Origin: Chromatiales bacterium
GTDB lineage: Bacteria > Pseudomonadota > Gammaproteobacteria > UBA6429
Length of the DNA: 64,000 nt
Direction of reading: 5' to 3'
Assembly (NCBI GenBank): GCA_027076405.1
Contig: JALTJN010000362.1
Span: forward strand, 434,001 to 498,000
The notes below the pieces were generated by a model. The model was not told where the DNA came from and searched no databases. It saw nothing but the letters and a program-made list of their open reading frames with translations. Within the stretch, counting starts at the first letter, position 1. The number at the start of each line of letters is the position of its first letter. Positions 56,029 through 64,000 of this stretch are shown one piece after another. The position numbers were made by a program, and so were the translations under genes.

Positions 56029-57255
56029 TTAACTTTTATAATTTTCATCAACATAGTCAGCAACAATTTTCTGAAATTCTTCAGCAATATTGTCACCTTT
56101 TAATGTTACAGTTTTTACGCCATCAACATATACCGGTGCAACGGGTTTTTCACCTGTACCAGGTAAGCTGATACCGATATTGGCATGTTTACTTTCACCG
56201 GGGCCGTTTACAACACAACCCATTACTGCAACATTCATATCTTCAACACCCGGATGGGTTTCGTGCCATTTTGGCATTTCATTGCGCAGGTAGCTTTGAA
56301 TATCCTGAGCCAGAGTCTGGAAATAAGTACTTGAGGTACGACCACAACCGGGACAGGCAACTACTTGTGGCGTGAATGAACGTAGCCCCATGGTTTGCAA
56401 TATTTCCTGAGCCACAATCACTTCCTTACATCGGTCACCGTGTGGTTCAGGTGTCAATGAAATTCGAATTGTGTCTCCGATACCTTCTTGTAATAAAATA
56501 GCCAGTGCTGCGGTTGAGGCAACAATCCCCTTTGAACCCATTCCGGCTTCAGTGAGTCCCAAATGTAATGCATAATCACAGGCTTTTGACAGGTCACGAT
56601 ACACGCTAATGAGATCCTGAACGCTGCTCATTTTTACTGAAAGAATAATTTTATTTTTTGCTAATCCAAGTGCCTCGGCTTGTTGTGCACTTTCCAAAGC
56701 AGAGGTGACCATGGCCTTGTGCATAATTTCATTGGGCTCTAGTGGCTGCGCAAGTTGACTATTTTCATCCATAATACGGGCGAGTAATGCCTGATCCAGA
56801 CTACCCCAATTCACGCCAATCCTTACCGGTTTGTCATTTTTAATTGCCACCTCAATCATGCTGGCATACTGATCATCGCGTTTTTTACCCTTGCCAACAT
56901 TGCCCGGATTAATTCGGTATTTTGCCAGTGCCTGACCACATTCGGGATAATCATTGAGTAATTTATGGCCATTAAAATGAAAGTCACCAACCAGCGGTAC
57001 AAAACACCCTTGGCGGTCTAAATCGGAACGGATTTTAGGCACCGCTTCGGCAGCATCGGCTGAATTAACCGTAATTCGTACCAGTTCTGAGCCTGCATTT
57101 GCTAATTCCATCACTTGTTTAACCGTGCTGTAAACATCGGCTGTGTCAGTGTTGGTCATAGATTGCACAACAATGGGGGCATCGCCACCAACAATAACAG
57201 TGTGTTCAGTCGTGCCAATGTGGACAGGTATTGTCTTGCGAGAATTAATAGTCAT
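56029..57255 (-). CDS. ispG: flavodoxin-dependent HMBPP synthase IspG (GcpE)
   Basis: 408-residue enzyme converting MEcPP to HMBPP in the non-mevalonate isoprenoid pathway. The [4Fe-4S] ligands are two Cys in [10 protein letters not shown] and one in [18 protein letters not shown]. The barrel start has [13 protein letters not shown] and [10 protein letters not shown]. Length exceeds E. coli IspG (372) by a few insertions, as in several other proteobacteria. It converges on mltF with 7 bases between the stops. Confidence 0.95.
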
Positions 57256-57433
57256 CTTAAAACCGTGAAATTAACAAATTTAAGCTCGAATCATAGCATT
57301 TTTATTTGAGACAGGATTGTTTGAAGATCGAAAAATAGAAGAACTTGTAGAAATAAAATATAATGGCCGGATTCAAAATATATTTAATACATTCAACAGG
57401 ACGTCATCATTCGTCCATTTAGGGGAAGGCAAG

Positions 57434-58276
57434 ATGAGTAAGCAGTCAGGACAAAATAAACCAACCATGGCCGAACAGGCTGATCGCCATGCGTTATACC
57501 AAGAGTCCGTTCAATTCCCCGAAGCCGAAGTTGATTTCATGAGCAAAACGTTCCAGAAATTACGTGGCCGTAAAGCCATCAGCATGAAAGAAGACTTTTG
57601 TGGCACCGCATACCTTGCGACAGAATGGTGTAAAAGTGACCCGGAACGTACTGCAATCGGGGTTGATTTTGATGGCCCAACGCTAGAGTGGGGCAAAAAG
57701 CACAACCTCGAAGCAGCCGGTGAAGATGTTGCCAAGCGTATTCAATTAATCGAAGATGATGTTCGCATTAAAACAGATAAAGTGGATATAACTTGTGCCT
57801 TTAACTTTAGTTACTGCCTGTTTGAAAAACGCGATGAACTCATTAACTACTTTAAAATTGCCCGTGAAAGTTTAAATGACGACGGTATACTCGTTTTAGA
57901 TTTATTCGGCGGAACAGAATGTGCCGACGTACTCGAAGAAGAAACCGAACTCGAAGATCAAAACGCAACCTACATCTGGGAACATGTTTCGTTCAACCCG
58001 ATAGATAATCACATGGAATGCGCCATTCATTTTGAATTTGATGATGGCTCACGCATGGACGAAGCCTTTACTTATTGCTGGCGTTTATGGGCAATCCCCG
58101 AGATTTTAGAATTACTTGAAGAAGCAGGTTACAGTAAAAGCCGCGTATTCTGGGAAGAGTATGTTGAGTCAGACGACGAAGACGATGATGAACTAGAAGG
58201 CACTGGTGAATACTACGAAACCACAGAAGTTGAAAATCAGGAATCGTGGATGATCTATATCGTCGCAGAAAAATAG
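57434..58276 (+). CDS. class I SAM-dependent methyltransferase, acidic C-terminus
   Basis: 280-residue Rossmann-fold methyltransferase. The SAM-binding segment is DFCGTAYLATEWCK and the following GVDFDGPTLEWG. The next strand is DITCAFNFSYCLFE and the post-motif is DDGILVLDLFGG. A strongly acidic stretch (ESDDEDDDELEGTGEYYETTEVE) lies near the end before a final strand. Substrate unknown. The start at 57434 is set by AGGGGAAGG just before; the frame extends upstream to 57317 without a site. Confidence 0.83.
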   Translation: MSKQSGQNKPTMAEQADRHALYQESVQFPEAEVDFMSKTFQKLRGRKAISMKEDFCGTAYLATEWCKSDPERTAIGVDFDGPTLEWGKKHNLEAAGEDVAKRIQLIEDDVRIKTDKVDITCAFNFSYCLFEKRDELINYFKIARESLNDDGILVLDLFGGTECADVLEEETELEDQNATYIWEHVSFNPIDNHMECAIHFEFDDGSRMDEAFTYCWRLWAIPEILELLEEAGYSKSRVFWEEYVESDDEDDDELEGTGEYYETTEVENQESWMIYIVAEK

Positions 58277-58335
58277 GCTTGTTTGTAGGTCGGCATGAAT
58301 GCCGGCGCAGTATCAATATTTTATATGGACTTAAA

Positions 58336-58509
58336 ATGAAAATACTTTTTGCAGTTATTACCTTACTCACCATAACCGCCTGTAGCCAACAGGCGGTTTA
58401 TAATATGCTACATGAAAGAGAAAGGCAGTTATGTATTGAACAAGGGCGTACAGATTGCCCGCGTGCAGAAAGTTACGAAAAATATAAACAACAAAGAGAT
58501 GAAATGTAG
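58336..58509 (+). CDS. small lipoprotein, 57 aa
   Basis: 57 residues (MKILFAVITLLTITACSQQA...). The hydrophobic signal with the lipobox TITAC places Cys16 as the lipidated residue. The short mature part is polar with two more Cys (QLCIEQGRTDCPRAESYEKY). The upstream frame to 58246 overlaps the methyltransferase gene and is ignored. A palindrome CGGCAT-GA-ATGCCG (58291-58304) lies before the start. Function unknown. Confidence 0.68.
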   Translation: MKILFAVITLLTITACSQQAVYNMLHERERQLCIEQGRTDCPRAESYEKYKQQRDEM

Positions 58510-58579
58510 CCTGATTATCTTTTTTTTTTGCATCATCAAAGTTAGGTTTCAATGAAATAAGGAGCAATGTTGAATTTGT

Positions 58580-59254
58580 TTAGATTTTCCGGCTACTGGC
58601 TTTAAAAAATAAAACATTACCAACTTGTTTAATAGACACTTCATTAAACCCGCTATGTAACAGTTCTTCTAATTCATCTTTTTTATCTTGAATATTATTA
58701 AAAATCCCCGACCTGTTATAGGCATCCATAACAACTTTTGCCATAAAATTCTGTTTTGTATCATAAATGGCCGTAGAACCAAAAATAGAACCATCATCAG
58801 TTAGATGATTGCCCAAATTTAATAAAGCCAGTCCTTTTGATTTAAAATCACCAGGTACACAGTGCAGTACGAAATTAAGCCCTATACTTTTAAATTTTCT
58901 GTTTTGTAAAGGCAAGGGTTCTAATATATTCGCCTTATAGATAGTTGCTTCTATTGGCTTAATATTTTTCTGAGTAGATTCCAGACAGTTTTCACTTAGA
59001 TCAAGCAGAGATAAATCTTGAATCTTTCCAGCATCGCTACACTTTTTAAGCAAAAATCCGGTGCCAGCACCTACTTCTAAATGATTTTTAGATAGATTGT
59101 CTAAGTAAAAATCAATGATTAATTTTGATGGGCATCTGAAAAATAGGGGTGAAACACATTTGAATACATATAAATCATAAACCGATAATAAAATCTTGCT
59201 GTAAACTTTTACTGCCTTATGTGCTTTAGCATGAGTATCGTTAATCGTTTCCAT
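58580..59254 (-). CDS. class I SAM-dependent methyltransferase
   Basis: 224 residues. The SAM-binding motif is HLEVGAGTGFLLKKCSDAG, followed by SLLDLSENCLE (acidic ribose contact) and NILEPLPLQNRKFKSIGLNFVLHCVPG. It resembles UbiE/Menaquinone-type or small-molecule methyltransferases; the substrate is unknown. AGGA lies 9 bases before the ATG. It lies at the left end of the minus-strand accessory island, with the 91-bp palindrome just upstream of its start. Confidence 0.82.
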   Translation of the reverse strand: METINDTHAKAHKAVKVYSKILLSVYDLYVFKCVSPLFFRCPSKLIIDFYLDNLSKNHLEVGAGTGFLLKKCSDAGKIQDLSLLDLSENCLESTQKNIKPIEATIYKANILEPLPLQNRKFKSIGLNFVLHCVPGDFKSKGLALLNLGNHLTDDGSIFGSTAIYDTKQNFMAKVVMDAYNRSGIFNNIQDKKDELEELLHSGFNEVSIKQVGNVLFFKASSRKI

Positions 59255-59280
59255 GTAACTGAGTCCTTGTTTTGTTATGA

Positions 59281-59371
59281 GTTAAGAATTAATCGGGGTC
59301 AGAACACAATTATTGCTAATATTAGGAACAATTGTGATCTGACCCTGATTTTCAGCATGTTAATTCTTAAC
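59281..59371. repeat. 91-bp REP/RAYT-type palindrome
   Basis: Outer arms GTTAAGAATTA (59281-59291) and TAATTCTTAAC (59361-59371) are perfect inverted repeats. Inner arms GGGGTCAGAACACAATT (59295-59311) and AATTGTGATCTGACCC (59330-59345) match with one mismatch. The GGGGTCAGA...TCTGACCCC pattern is typical of the flanks of REP-associated tyrosine transposase elements. No transposase is present, so this is a solo or non-autonomous copy. Its right arm encodes the last codons and stop of the neighbouring 74-aa gene. Confidence 0.75.
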
Positions 59372-59584
59372 TTTTTTTGCGGCCAGATAGAATATATACG
59401 AAAGTATAATAGATGATATTATATATGCAGGCAAAGTTGTCGTTAGCATTAGAAGACTGCTATCAACTCGATGCTCTTCAGACATAAAAGGGGTAGCTTG
59501 AGTAATAAAGGAATAATTATAAATCCCAAAATTGATTATAAAGCACAGAATTGAAAGAGCAGAATATGTAAATACTGTTTTCAT
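59360..59584 (-). CDS. small membrane protein, candidate immunity to Tae4
   Basis: 74 residues with two hydrophobic helices (about 5-24 and 47-68) joined by a polar loop with EEHR and a basic KKVKN tail. Positive-inside reasoning puts the loop in the periplasm, where Tae4 acts. GGGAGG lies 11 bases before the ATG. It starts 3 bases after the Tae4 stop, the position where an immunity gene is expected. It does not look like classical Tai4, which is a soluble periplasmic protein with a signal peptide. Immunity is inferred from position and topology only. Confidence 0.62.
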   Translation of the reverse strand: MKTVFTYSALSILCFIINFGIYNYSFITQATPFMSEEHRVDSSLLMLTTTLPAYIISSIILSYIFYLAAKKVKN

Positions 59585-59587
59585 GAT

Positions 59588-60097
59588 TTATTTAACCTCC
59601 CAGAACCATATTTCTTTTGATTTATTTAAGTCACTTACACGACCTAAAAACTCTAATATACTTCGAGTAAACATAGATGAGCTTGTTATTTCGTCTTTGT
59701 TCCAAAGATCGATATGATCACCGCTACGATTTTGGAATGTTTCCTTGTCTCGTTGCCAGTAATCTTTAAAATAGATGACGCCAGTTTTATCTTTTAGTAA
59801 AGTTTGAAATGATCCTGAATTTACCTTTACTGCTTTTGTAAAACCATTTGGTGTATTTAATTTTAGAGCCTTTGCCATTTCTTCTGCTCTAATAATATGT
59901 TTCTTACCACTGTGTGACCAGCATTTATCTGCTTTTAAATGGCTTATATCTATTCCTGACCTGATAAAGCATTCACTTAGTAGAATTGCACAGTAATTTT
60001 CAAAAGATGTATCAGATGTTTTCTGTCTGTTTCTGCATTTTTTTTGGACAGGATCTTTTTGTGGGAAGTTTTTCCATAATGTATTAAAAGTTATCAT
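59588..60097 (-). CDS. tae4: Tae4-type peptidoglycan amidase effector
   Basis: 169 residues matching the Tae4 family of type VI secretion amidase effectors, which cleave the D-iGlu-mDAP bond in peptidoglycan cross-links. Marks are the F-x-x-LW-x-x-FP N-terminus (FNTLWKNFP), the nucleophile Cys36 in SFENYCAILLSECFIRSG, CWSHSGKKHIIRAEEMA, TGVIYFKDYWQRD and SGDHIDLWN with His128, and the IWFWEVK ending. No signal peptide and no other type VI genes are visible, so it is an orphan here. AAGGA lies before the ATG. It starts about 60 bases after the attC-like site. Confidence 0.85.
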   Translation of the reverse strand: MITFNTLWKNFPQKDPVQKKCRNRQKTSDTSFENYCAILLSECFIRSGIDISHLKADKCWSHSGKKHIIRAEEMAKALKLNTPNGFTKAVKVNSGSFQTLLKDKTGVIYFKDYWQRDKETFQNRSGDHIDLWNKDEITSSSMFTRSILEFLGRVSDLNKSKEIWFWEVK

Positions 60098-60153
60098 AAC
60101 TATTCCTTTGTTTAATAAATGATTTCCATATTGTGTTGAGATTATTTTTAAAT

Positions 60154-60249
60154 GCTAACGCCTTGCTAACAGGCAATTTAAAGGGTGGCGTTTTTGCGAA
60201 AGCAAAACAAGTGCGCTTTGAATTGTCCGCTGGAGCTACTTGTTAGCCC
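60154..60249 (-). mobile_element. integron attC-like site of the Hachiman cassette
   Basis: 96-bp imperfect palindrome read in the direction of hamB. R'' box GGGCTAAC (60249-60242), which includes the end of hamB, and R' box GCGTTAGC (60161-60154). Inner arms GGCAATTTAAAG (60172-60183) and CTTTGAATTGTCC (60216-60228, plus-strand reading) pair with one mismatch and one bulged base. The middle holds a small hairpin around TTTTTGCGAAAGCAAAA. The R boxes deviate in the variable positions from the GTTRRRY consensus but have the GTTAGC form common in chromosomal integrons. The hamB stop lies inside the site, as usual for cassettes. Confidence 0.85.
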
Positions 60250-62407
60250 TTTTATCAGGTATCTTTGAACCTATTCCTTTCTGAAAGTCCTCAATGACAC
60301 CTCTTTCAAATGCTCCATCAGCAAAAACATTTAATTCACGATTTCGTAAAGAATTAACCACTGATTCTAATTCATCATCTTTATTAAACAATTTATTATT
60401 TAACAGCTTTTCAGAAATCTCAGTTGGCAAACCATATTCCTCCAAAGAAGAAAATGAAGTTGGCTGAAATAAATGTTCAATAGATACGGCAAATTGAGAA
60501 TAGTTGCATCCTTTTAATCCTCTCTTGGTCAAAATGTAATTCGCAACATCACTAAGTGCCATCAGGTATTTAGGGTAGTTAAATGAAGCCCACCCCCTAA
60601 GAAAAGCAAGAACATCTTCCACTGCCTCATCAGGTTTATTATTACGCCCAATTTGACTTTGAATCATCTCTTTTCTAAACAAAGAAACATTTCTTGAACC
60701 ATATAACTTCCAAATCCAAAGCGTCATCATGCTCGCACTATGCATAGATCCTTGGCGTGCTGAAGGCGCCCCACCAAGATAGTCCCAAATAATATTTGAA
60801 GAAAATAGAACATCATCATATGTAGGTCTTGATGACCATGAGCATTTAGAAAGCTCACGTACATTCATGTTTAATAAATTCTTTGCCGTATCAAGTAAAA
60901 ATTCGGGCTCAATGGAAGATATATTCCTTAATAACTCAACAGGTAGTATGTCTTGGTTTAAGAGTTTATCTAGCTTTTCTTGGAGCTGGTCTGGAACATC
61001 ATTATCTGAAAGTTGAATCAATATACTACTAGGTGTTGTTTCTGTTGGATTTATTGCAGGCATATCTACAAACGGTAGTTCTTCCTGTGGCGGCTCATCA
61101 AATACAAAAACATGACCAATAAAATGCCTGAACATCCGCCCCGATCGTCCTCTGATGTTATTAAAAGTAAAAAATTCCAGTTTTTTTCTATTCAGGATAT
61201 TGTCATAAACAATAACATTTTTAGCCGCAGTATTTACACCTTCTATAAGTGTTGATGTACATAGAAGAACATTTAACTTACCTTCTTCAAATGCCCTTAT
61301 CATGAACCGTCCTAATGACCTAGGAAGTCTACCATGATGTATTCCAATTCCATGTTGTAGCGCAATAGATACTAACCATTGATCATGGTAATTCTCTGCT
61401 GTCCACTTTGCTGCCTCTATCAATTCCTCATCTGTAGTTTTTTCTACTTCTCTTAGCTCTAAATATGACTTTAACAATTTTCTTGTACTAGCCGGTGACT
61501 GGCAATAAATCATTGTCTGCCCATCTATTGTGTCTAATAAATTAGCTAGGGCTTCATTCTTATTTGGTTTTTTAGAGATGACATGAAGTTCTATAGCAAC
61601 TGTTTGAAAGTCCTCAATCAGAAAGTTGCAATTAAGCTTTTCTGTAACCATACTTGGAATTGCTCTAATTGATGGGCCAAGCATATAAAACTGAGCGCCT
61701 GTGTTAGCTAATTTAAGAAAGGCTTGATTAAGTTGTGTGGCGCGGCCTCCTTCTTCTGTTATAGACAATTTATAAAATTCATCAATTGCAAAGAAGTCAA
61801 CTTTTGGTATTTCATCCTCCATAGCAAGGAAACGTTCTTGAGTAAAAACAAAGATATTTTTATTACTTAATTTTTGGTTGCTTGATGTAATTATTGAATA
61901 TCTACTCACGAAGCGAGCCATACGCCGCCTTGTTTCTTCCACTAAAGCTAACGTTGGAACTATTAAAACAATATTATCAAAGTTTTTTGCGGATATTGTT
62001 ATATCGATTAGTAAACTTTTCCCAAAAGACGTGGGAGCACTGAGAATGATCGACTCGCCAGCTATAAGCCTGCGCAATACTCGCGCCTGTGAGCTATGTA
62101 GTACAAAATCTGCCATTTCTCCATCGGCTTGATGAGCCGCATGCAGGATCGCATTTCGTAAAGATAGCTCTTTTAGCCTTAAGTCAAAAACATATGGGTA
62201 CAAACCTACCTGCATTGCAAGGTCATCAACTATATCTTGATAATCACTTTCAAGTTCATCACGCACCTCCAACGCACGGATGACAAACTCTCTCCCTAAA
62301 TCCGCATTTGATATGCATATATTTGAAATGATGGACAGCAAACCAAAGGGATTGGAAGTCCATTCATTTGATTTCAGTTGATTCCTTATTTGATATGCAC
62401 TTGTCAT
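60236..62407 (-). CDS. hamB: Hachiman defence helicase HamB
   Basis: 723-residue SF2 helicase, the HamB component of Hachiman. Motif I is SAPTSFGKS (123-131), motif Ia LIVPTLALVEE (148-158), motif II AIDEFYKL (207-214, DEFY instead of DEAH), motif V TSTLIEGVN (384-392) and motif VI RGRSGR (419-424). The C-terminal 290 residues are helical and specific to this family. HamB moves along DNA and holds the HamA nuclease in check until damaged or phage DNA is met. It overlaps hamA by 4 bases (ATGA), and its stop TAG lies inside the attC site. Confidence 0.9.
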   Translation of the reverse strand: MTSAYQIRNQLKSNEWTSNPFGLLSIISNICISNADLGREFVIRALEVRDELESDYQDIVDDLAMQVGLYPYVFDLRLKELSLRNAILHAAHQADGEMADFVLHSSQARVLRRLIAGESIILSAPTSFGKSLLIDITISAKNFDNIVLIVPTLALVEETRRRMARFVSRYSIITSSNQKLSNKNIFVFTQERFLAMEDEIPKVDFFAIDEFYKLSITEEGGRATQLNQAFLKLANTGAQFYMLGPSIRAIPSMVTEKLNCNFLIEDFQTVAIELHVISKKPNKNEALANLLDTIDGQTMIYCQSPASTRKLLKSYLELREVEKTTDEELIEAAKWTAENYHDQWLVSIALQHGIGIHHGRLPRSLGRFMIRAFEEGKLNVLLCTSTLIEGVNTAAKNVIVYDNILNRKKLEFFTFNNIRGRSGRMFRHFIGHVFVFDEPPQEELPFVDMPAINPTETTPSSILIQLSDNDVPDQLQEKLDKLLNQDILPVELLRNISSIEPEFLLDTAKNLLNMNVRELSKCSWSSRPTYDDVLFSSNIIWDYLGGAPSARQGSMHSASMMTLWIWKLYGSRNVSLFRKEMIQSQIGRNNKPDEAVEDVLAFLRGWASFNYPKYLMALSDVANYILTKRGLKGCNYSQFAVSIEHLFQPTSFSSLEEYGLPTEISEKLLNNKLFNKDDELESVVNSLRNRELNVFADGAFERGVIEDFQKGIGSKIPDKRANK

Positions 62408-63273
62408 ATTTGCAATGCCTTAAGCCGAGTATCTAAAGCCTCTATTAGAGCTTTTTTTTCTTTTAAAGGAATTAGTATGATGTGAACAGTAAGTGGGAAA
62501 TCAGTACCAAAACGCTCTTTATATTGCACTGATAATTTCCCTCTTAGATTGGCGTATGCCTTGGTTACTTCATTCAGAATATTATCTTTATATTTTCGAT
62601 CTGATATTTTAGTATTTTGTACAACTGTACTGTCATAGGTAAGCAAAATAGGAATGCAAACTTGCTTAAATACTTTATCTAAGGAAGTGTTTTCATGTAA
62701 TAACTGTTTTAATGAATCAGCCTCAGGCCATTCTGGATCAATTTTGTTCTTAATTAAAATAAATTCAGACTTCAAATAATCAGTTTCTAAGTGGTCTATT
62801 ATTTCTTTAGAAACATCATAAATTGCCTTAGTAACATCATTGTAAAATTTGGTCTCTCCAATCCACAGCTCAAGTCCTTTATCTTTTCTTACCACATGAA
62901 CCGAATCAAAGCCTTTGACCGTTTCATTTACTGTGCTTTTATAATAAATCTTGCTGACAGCGGGAAGTGTTGAATAAACTTGCCGAATGGCAATATGGAG
63001 CAATATTTCCCCAAATTCACCACGCAGACCATATTTTTCTGTTTGATAGACAATCTTCGCTGCCTTTTTTGTCATCTGCAAAGCATTATGATGACCAATC
63101 TCATTCAGTTCGGAATAATTCAAGGCAAATTCAGGTAACCATTCCATAACATGGTCAGCTAATTGATTATTCCTCCATTCTCCGCGCTCAAAACCGGCAC
63201 AAAGAATTAGATCATCACCAGGAATTTGAATTTCATGGAAAATTAGATTAAGAAAATTGTCAGGATGATCCAT
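62404..63273 (-). CDS. hamA: Hachiman defence nuclease HamA (DUF1837)
   Basis: 289-residue DUF1837 protein, the nuclease effector of Hachiman. The PD-(D/E)xK-like core is visible as GEFGEILLHIAIRQ (residues 85-98), the metal Asp123 in GFDSVHVVRK and the E140-T-K142 pair in LWIGETKFY. The remaining strand/helix order fits the family. In known systems HamA degrades DNA without sequence specificity when released by HamB, giving abortive infection. It lies 23 bases inside the cassette start, with AGGAAAA as a weak ribosome binding site, and is first in the two-gene unit. Confidence 0.9.
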   Translation of the reverse strand: MDHPDNFLNLIFHEIQIPGDDLILCAGFERGEWRNNQLADHVMEWLPEFALNYSELNEIGHHNALQMTKKAAKIVYQTEKYGLRGEFGEILLHIAIRQVYSTLPAVSKIYYKSTVNETVKGFDSVHVVRKDKGLELWIGETKFYNDVTKAIYDVSKEIIDHLETDYLKSEFILIKNKIDPEWPEADSLKQLLHENTSLDKVFKQVCIPILLTYDSTVVQNTKISDRKYKDNILNEVTKAYANLRGKLSVQYKERFGTDFPLTVHIILIPLKEKKALIEALDTRLKALQI

Positions 63274-63295
63274 AAATTTTTGGTTTTCCTATTTT

Positions 63296-63303
63296 GGGCT
63301 AAC
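63296..63303 (-). mobile_element. cassette insertion boundary (GTTAGCCC)
   Basis: Minus strand GTTAGCCC at 63303-63296, identical to the inverse complement of the R'' box of the attC at 60249-60242. It marks the upstream end of the cassette. The sequence beyond (TTAATTAACTG) does not resemble an attC, so the insertion target may have been a secondary chromosomal GTT site. Confidence 0.7.
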
Positions 63304-63418
63304 AGTTAATTAAACAGAATTCTGTATTTGACCTTATTAGCTAATAATCCTATCTAATCCATCTTTTAAATATTATTTAAGTGCATAAATCCTAACAGCT
63401 TAAGTTTATATTAACGAA

Positions 63419-64000
63419 TTATTTTATTGGTCGATGCTCTGCATGGTATGGCGATTCGCGTGTTTTATCATGAGTATGCATTCTATATTCAACAAAGTCT
63501 TCAGGCTTATCAAAAAACATGAAGGGATTACCTTCACATTGTTCGTGCATGGTTGATGTAGTTTTTTCTGCGTAGTTATGGCCGGGTAAAATAAGTGTGT
63601 CGCCGGGCATTTTTCCTAATTTATTTAATGTGTCATACATAACATTGGGATCGCCACCGGCTAAGTCGCAACGGCCACAACCAAAGACAAACATCGTATC
63701 TCCGGCAATTAAATTGTCATCAATGTGGTAACACGCTGAACCGGGAGTGTGACCGGGTGTGTGTAAAATTTTAATTTCACTTTCGCCAATCTTAATATGA
63801 TCACCACCATGATGCAGTGAAGGGTGGGCGAGTGTTTCTCCCCAGAACTTTGCTTCGTCTTTTAATAAATGTAATTGGGCATCGTGGTGTTTTAAAATAT
63901 CTTCTACGCCATTGATGTGATCAAAGTGACTGTGGGTGAGTAAGATATCGGTAATGGTCACGCCTTTTTCTTTTGCCAGCTTTATAATTTCTTCTGCTTC
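63419..64000 (-). CDS. metallo-beta-lactamase-fold hydrolase (partial, 5' end outside window)
   Basis: 193 residues visible; the frame is open to the right edge (EAEEIIKLAKEKGVTITD...), so the gene starts outside the window. The metal-binding motif HxHxDH is in LTHSHFDHINGVED, with further ligands in LHTPGHTPGSACYHI, IAGDTMFVFGCGRCDLAGG and LPGHNYA. The GCGRCD motif and the layout resemble persulfide dioxygenase (ETHE1) or glyoxalase II relatives of bacteria. Which one cannot be decided without the N-terminus. A start at 63961 (GTG) is not supported because coding continues upstream. Confidence 0.85.
   Translation of the reverse strand, partial: EAEEIIKLAKEKGVTITDILLTHSHFDHINGVEDILKHHDAQLHLLKDEAKFWGETLAHPSLHHGGDHIKIGESEIKILHTPGHTPGSACYHIDDNLIAGDTMFVFGCGRCDLAGGDPNVMYDTLNKLGKMPGDTLILPGHNYAEKTTSTMHEQCEGNPFMFFDKPEDFVEYRMHTHDKTRESPYHAEHRPIK

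Follow-up and report, generated by a model that had tools for sequence, protein, structure and literature searches.

Evidence for a Hachiman operon carried as a 3.1-kb integron gene cassette behind an attI-like site in an uncultured gammaproteobacterium

The 64,000-nt stretch of contig JALTJN010000362.1 analysed here (the window), from an uncultured gammaproteobacterium probably related to Thiohalophilus, was found to contain a complete two-gene Hachiman anti-phage defence system, hamAB, flanked by an integron cassette recombination site (attC) and by a site resembling attI, the primary recombination site of an integron. The host genome was examined within the window. The features that delimit the hamAB unit, which is in all probability an integron gene cassette, were as follows.

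62404..63273, minus strand: hamA, Hachiman effector nuclease of 289 aa, first gene of the cassette (Pfam HamA and PADLOC HamA2)
60236..62407, minus strand: hamB, Hachiman helicase of 723 aa (PADLOC HamB2, DEAD and Helicase_C)
60153..60249, minus strand: attC of the hamAB cassette (R'' box 60242-60249, R' box 60153-60159)
63296..63303, minus strand: left cassette boundary GTTAGCCC, exact inverse of the cassette's own R'' box, with the crossover between 63303 and 63302
60159..63302, minus strand: hamAB gene cassette of 3,144 bp, between the crossovers of attI (63303/63302) and attC (60159/60158)
63300..63398, minus strand: attI-like site preceding the first cassette, with homology to the DNA between the first cassette and the integrase gene (intI) of related integrons

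The HamA nuclease and the HamB helicase were encoded in one operon, the arrangement that defines Hachiman, with an overlap of 4 nt between the two genes. HamA was found to match Pfam HamA PF08878 (E 1.5e-59) and PADLOC HamA2 (E 6.5e-139), and HamB was found to match PADLOC HamB2 (E 7.1e-265) and to contain the DEAD and Helicase_C domains. The residues D123, E140 and K142 of HamA were invariant across an alignment of 30 HamA proteins, and E140 and K142, which form an E-x-K motif, probably correspond to E138 and K140, shown to be important in the Hachiman of E. coli ECOR31 (excerpt of PMC12278908). The nuclease and helicase pair was common to the window system, ECOR31 HamAB and AbpAB, whereas the HamB of the window was compact, at 723 aa compared with 1174 aa for 8vx9_B of ECOR31, and closer to AbpB than to ECOR31 HamB, its nearest solved chain being AbpB 8zue_B (304 bits, E 1.6e-89) followed by ECOR31 HamB at 46 bits. 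In the alignment the E-x-K motif was present in the window HamA and absent from AbpA. The size of HamB was not reduced, the ten relatives with complete hamB among loci L001-L012 containing 713-722 codons including the stop.

The stop codon of hamB (60236-60238, minus strand) was located inside the attC palindrome at 60153-60249. The site contained the R and L boxes, the extrahelical bases and the bottom-strand hairpin by which attC sites are recognised. A covariance model was built from 27 attC sites, none of them taken from the window: 18 lay next to intI in two Alcanivorax genomes and a Cycloclasticus metagenome-assembled genome (MAG), 8 came from four close host relatives and a Thiohalophilus-like genome, and 1 came from Pokkaliibacter. 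It matched the 64 kb once (60153-60248, minus strand, 20.2 bits, E 0.016), and the accepted attC sites of the host relatives, which were training sites, obtained 18.3-31.9 bits with the same model. A separate two-half scorer gave 48.1 for the window attC, 16.6 for the runner-up in the window and at most 27.4 in 30 dinucleotide-shuffled windows. When trained without the host-family sites it gave 44.9, and the real-DNA null of 79 other HamA loci (1.13 Mb; the loci were taken from species genomes, best 80 of 83) contained a best value of 31.7 (L026) followed by 25.1. The plus strand, which is the bottom strand of the cassette, was found to fold as an attC-type hairpin of -17.0 kcal/mol against -14.4 kcal/mol for the opposite strand. 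The bottom strand was likewise the more stable one in 23 of 28 other attC sites folded alike; among the remaining five, two were tied or reversed by <0.5, whereas the reversal was clear in the 3' attC of L001.

The left boundary GTTAGCCC was located 22 nt before the ATG of hamA, and 8 of its 8 bases were the inverse of the R'' box GGGCTAAC, 3.1 kb away. The window contained two occurrences only, at 60242-60249 on the plus strand (in attC) and at 63296-63303 on the minus strand; this count is itself not rare (0.84 expected; at least 2 copies in 19 of 100 shuffles), and the unlikely feature is the position, not the count. The rule that a cassette starts with the inverse of its own R'' box was exact, at 7 of 7 bases, in 23 of 32 neighbouring attC pairs from four control arrays, many of whose sites had also served in model training. 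The median attC spacing in these 32 intervals was 495 bp against 3,144 bp for the hamAB cassette, and two intervals were longer than 2.5 kb: one of 2,740 bp, whose ORFs (open reading frames) read to us like an insertion-sequence transposase, and one of 3,427 bp with mismatched boxes, where an attC site was probably missed. An earlier note, made from the sequence alone, had described hamB as ending inside an attC-like palindrome and the unit as beginning with the inverse of the R'' box 3.1 kb away, had invoked the pairing rule and had proposed that both genes moved together as one oversized cassette. The two observations were reproduced, the rule held in the control arrays, and the proposal is supported. 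The covariance search, which the note had named as a refuting test, came out in favour of an attC site, and the bottom-strand folding that it had suggested gave an attC-type hairpin of unexceptional energy.

The upstream flank was compared by BLASTN with 184 fetched loci (1.83 Mb). Positions 63300-63398 were found to match L172 (76% over 104 columns, E 2.7e-11) and L171 (74% over 100 columns, E 1.4e-8) in segments (96-194 and 96-193) that immediately precede intI, whose ORFs begin at 236 and 239 respectively, followed by shorter matches in L182 and L164 (E 0.001). In an alignment of seven attI regions the nucleotides TAACAGT were invariant at the crossover and near-invariant again by the integrase start. 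The homology started at the crossover (TAACAG) and stopped shortly before the intI start of the relatives. Integron cassettes lie at attI or behind another attC; hamAB lay at attI, and given this attI-like flank it is therefore taken as the first cassette of an integron. This attI site, with the cassette in first position and intI gone from the site, is an addition to the reading of the earlier note. The IntI ORFs of L171, L172, L162 and L164-L166 were 468-474 aa long and contained extra N-terminal sequence relative to the 315-position family model.

The host genes on the two sides of the insertion were as follows.

63419..64000, minus strand: gloB-like metallo-beta-lactamase-fold gene, a host gene exceeding the window edge (Pfam Lactamase_B E 1.3e-18)
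58336..58509, plus strand: smallL, a small lipoprotein-like host gene on the other side of the insertion

A complete integron contains intI next to attI, and here the gloB-like gene directly followed attI, its stop codon abutting the attI remnant at the place expected for intI. In four related integrons (L162, L165, L170 and L172), which occupied several places in the genomes of the family, intI and a housekeeping gene stood tail to tail; this neighbour was ksgA-like in two, mutM-like in one and recQ-like in one. This layout, together with the attI abutting the gloB stop, therefore points to an integron whose attI and first cassette were kept and whose intI was lost; because no fragment of intI was detected in the window, we can only infer that loss.

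The host family was represented by 40 genomes reached by an IspG search, and the close relatives were 8 genomes (G335-G342) carrying the flanking methyltransferase MT1 at 87-97% identity; their assemblies are fragmented, and gene absence in them is weak evidence. The gloB-like gene was a neighbour of MT1/smallL in the relatives. In the window smallL and gloB were separated by 4.9 kb, whereas the locus MT1-smallL-gloB of G341 and G342 was an empty site, without any gene intervening between its last two members. The distance between MT1 and gloB was about 305-313 bp in G132, G365 and G355, and the other five close relatives with both markers contained 1.2-2.6 kb of DNA there. HamA was found in none of the 8 close relatives at E <= 1e-10, a query that does recover G001, so that the other refuting test of the earlier note, hamAB between conserved flanks in related genomes, found HamA in none of them and a bare locus in two. 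At E <= 1e-80, HamA was found in 0 of 40 genomes in the order of G132, which are the 40 of the family sample, and in 1 of 390 in the order of G001, namely G001 itself. Relatives of HamB were not found in the viral contigs searched, and a plasmid search gave 11 records, every one at <60% identity. The gene intI, counted when above the curated family cut-off, was present in 6 of the 8 close relatives and in 20 of the 26 family genomes searched. The smallL-gloB slot (window 58509-63419) contained differing extra DNA in several close relatives (L144, L146, L147, L150 and L151), and is a possible hot spot of insertion.

A second small unit immediately followed the hamAB attC.

59588..60097, minus strand: gene of a Tae4-like type VI secretion system (T6SS) amidase effector, directly behind the hamAB attC (Pfam Tae4 E 2.1e-25)
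59363..59584, minus strand: 74-aa membrane ORF behind tae4, without a Pfam match

By its position the 74-aa ORF may encode an immunity protein, and the tae4 unit may be a second cassette. In another genome, G344 (L175 1473-2364), a Tae4-like gene and a small membrane ORF formed an attC-bounded cassette in first position (start GTTAGGTATT, R'' AATACCTAAC), with intI 0.7 kb away on the same contig. The order of the two genes at 59363-60158 of the window was as in G344, but without a supported attC, none behind the 74-aa ORF being supported by the scorer or by folding. One candidate, AATGCTAAC at 59442-59450 (the inverse of TTAGCATT, the start of the next unit), lay inside the small ORF, the 9-mer occurred three times in the window, and with half scores of -12.5 and -7.4 and a weak fold the candidate is not claimed. 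The Tae4 relative L177 contained an attC-like site (31.3) without a matching cassette start. A class I methyltransferase-like gene at 58580-59254, located between smallL and the tae4 unit, had no match at E <= 1e-15 in the 40 family genomes. At 59280-59372 lay a 34-nt palindrome of GGGGTCAGA type whose inverted outer arms (AGTTAAGAATTAA) measured 13 nt; we take it to be REP-like, and it is not an attC according to the model.

Two further hamAB loci are likely cassettes. In Pokkaliibacter (L001, HamA identity 77%) hamAB was flanked by attC sites with scores of 41.4 and 29.5; the upstream one (41.4) belonged to the training set and the one behind hamB (29.5) did not. The latter contained TAAA for TAAC, was missed by the covariance model and folded at -13.0 kcal/mol on the bottom against -15.4 kcal/mol on the top strand; the hamAB of L001 is thus a likely, not a proven, cassette. 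No intI over the cut-off was found for L001 (best 84.8 bits against 265). L026, a short contig (5,953 bp) of a Verrucomicrobia MAG whose host label may be wrong (HamA identity 46%), contained two attC-like sites, one upstream and the other behind hamB, the latter showing a boundary match of 8 nt; its scorer hit of 31.7 is probably a real attC, and its hamAB is likely a cassette. A generic structural test on 73 loci with complete hamB, including the window, found L026 alone; the window and L001, both with imperfect L boxes, escaped it, and swapped controls matched in 6 of 5,256 pairs. In the HamA tree the window protein grouped with seven metagenome proteins and L001 belonged to another supported group with Alcanivorax, which therefore indicates either different cassette events or one old, diverged cassette. 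The hamAB of Alcanivorax (L003 and L004) had the look of a decayed attC behind hamB, its half-site was inconspicuous in the scorer, and it is not claimed. The gene intI over the cut-off was present in 7 of 8 HamA-bearing genomes, hand-picked and hence a biased choice. Among the metagenome matches listed (P0001-P0120), the longest contig measured 3.00-3.35 kb, about the cassette size, in 14 of 120 HamA relatives, and the neighbouring bins of the same 120 contained 5 (2.65-3.00 kb) and 8 (3.35-3.70 kb). One of these relatives, P0002, was 98% identical and came from a contig of 8,135 bp.

It is concluded, with a probability of about 90%, that hamAB is a genuine 3,144-bp cassette captured at attI, the first cassette of a small integron between smallL and gloB that has since lost intI, and that it is now probably fixed there as an ordinary Hachiman. 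On this view a small integron came to lie between smallL and gloB. The cassette would have entered in circular form, its attC, folded from the bottom strand, being recombined with attI by IntI, which would account for the left junction CTG^TTAGCCC and the right junction GGCG^TTAGCA; intI would then have been lost from the site, so that the cassette would stay behind the former attI. If expressed, hamAB would act in defence in the ordinary manner, HamB sensing damaged or single-stranded DNA ends and releasing the HamA nuclease. Several results weigh against this conclusion. The covariance E value of 0.016 is modest, and a run with filters off over 57000-64000 did not list the attC site, an omission suspected to come from the hit-length limit. 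The fold energy of the site was unexceptional, 19 of 200 shuffles folding as well. Searched with the IntI proteins of three related integrons, which came from two relatives, the window gave no intI (best tblastn E 0.25), and a sigma-70-like promoter toward hamA was not detected in the attI remnant. Among the 12 HamA loci at >=63% identity (L001-L012), flanking attC was found in L001 only.

A piece of an integron consisting of attI, the hamAB cassette and perhaps tae4 might instead have been transferred here as a single unit, either through homologous recombination or by a transposon, in which case intI was never present at the site. The absent intI, the attI remnant stopping at the gloB stop, the REP-like palindrome with its inverted arms and the other extra DNA in the same slot of several relatives would all be accounted for, yet the position of attI against the gloB stop resembles the tail-to-tail layout of the four relatives with intI deleted, and no transposase was identified within 57-64 kb by ORF and Pfam scans; such a transfer is judged unlikely. 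Insertion by IntI at a non-classical genomic site (attG), leaving a lone attC far from any integron (a SALIN), would agree with the single attC detected in the window and the lack of an integrase gene nearby, and both attG insertion and SALINs are in print (excerpts of PMC12901181 and PMC12690207); it is nevertheless very improbable and already disfavoured, the upstream homology to the attI regions of related integrons extending over ~100 bp, nearly to the intI start. A chance palindrome or a transcription terminator closing an ordinary defence operon, with no integron involved, would suit the shuffled fold energies and the covariance match missing with filters off, but it is hardly credible against a scorer value far above the shuffles and the real-DNA null, an exact boundary match 3.1 kb away with attI at that boundary, and a terminator scan that did not report the site.

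Defence cassettes in integrons are established, and the systems are reviewed as streamlined to small size, larger systems of more than two genes being described as absent (PMC12409362). The hamAB cassette resembles the cassettes with anti-phage function described from sedentary chromosomal integrons (Darracq et al. 2025; Getz et al. 2025; via an excerpt of PMC12409362) in being an attC-bounded defence cassette of a chromosomal integron in a marine gammaproteobacterium, and differs in its full length (289 + 723 aa), its 3.1 kb and its first position. Twelve defence systems, including Kiwa and Shedu, have been found in Xanthomonas integron cassettes (excerpt of PMC12444791), and Hachiman is listed as Tn7-like cargo, separate from integron cassettes (excerpt of PMC8649781). 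Sites of attC without an integrase, as a cluster or a single site, are known as CALIN or SALIN (excerpt of PMC12690207); the hamAB locus is alike in its attC without an integrase gene at the site, but it still has attI, and it is an integron lacking intI rather than a cluster without a platform. A consistent drop of excision was reported only for cassettes of at least 1,500 bp with at least one poorly folding site (excerpt of PMC5371416). Full-text searches of the literature, which lacked the texts of Darracq, Kieffer, Getz and Loot, found no Hachiman integron cassette, and hence this one is not claimed to be unreported.

Kieffer et al. 2025 are said to have described bacteriophage-resistance cassettes of mobile integrons. 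Those cassettes and hamAB would share the movement of defence genes by IntI, presumably so for hamAB, whereas hamAB was found at a chromosomal locus with no mobile integron seen and no integrase gene at the site.

The hamAB cassette is notable for its atypical size of 3.1 kb, its first position, its attI kept without intI and its likely recurrence. More tentatively, and with some doubt, compact Hachiman may recur as an integron cassette of ~3.1 kb in bacteria that are not related to each other, namely the Thiohalophilus relative studied here, Pokkaliibacter and the Verrucomicrobia MAG, in which case integrons would disperse full-size suicide systems triggered by DNA damage, deletion of intI could fix a first-position defence cassette as an immune locus, and the excess of 3.0-3.35-kb contigs would represent whole cassettes cut at attC repeats by assemblers. 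A cassette of 3.1 kb that holds a full-size two-gene Hachiman, together with two more likely cases, widens the range of what integrons can spread, and it offers a natural case for the upper size limit of cassette exchange. The attI kept where intI is missing also suggests a route by which mobile defence cassettes may settle as stable immune loci of the chromosome.

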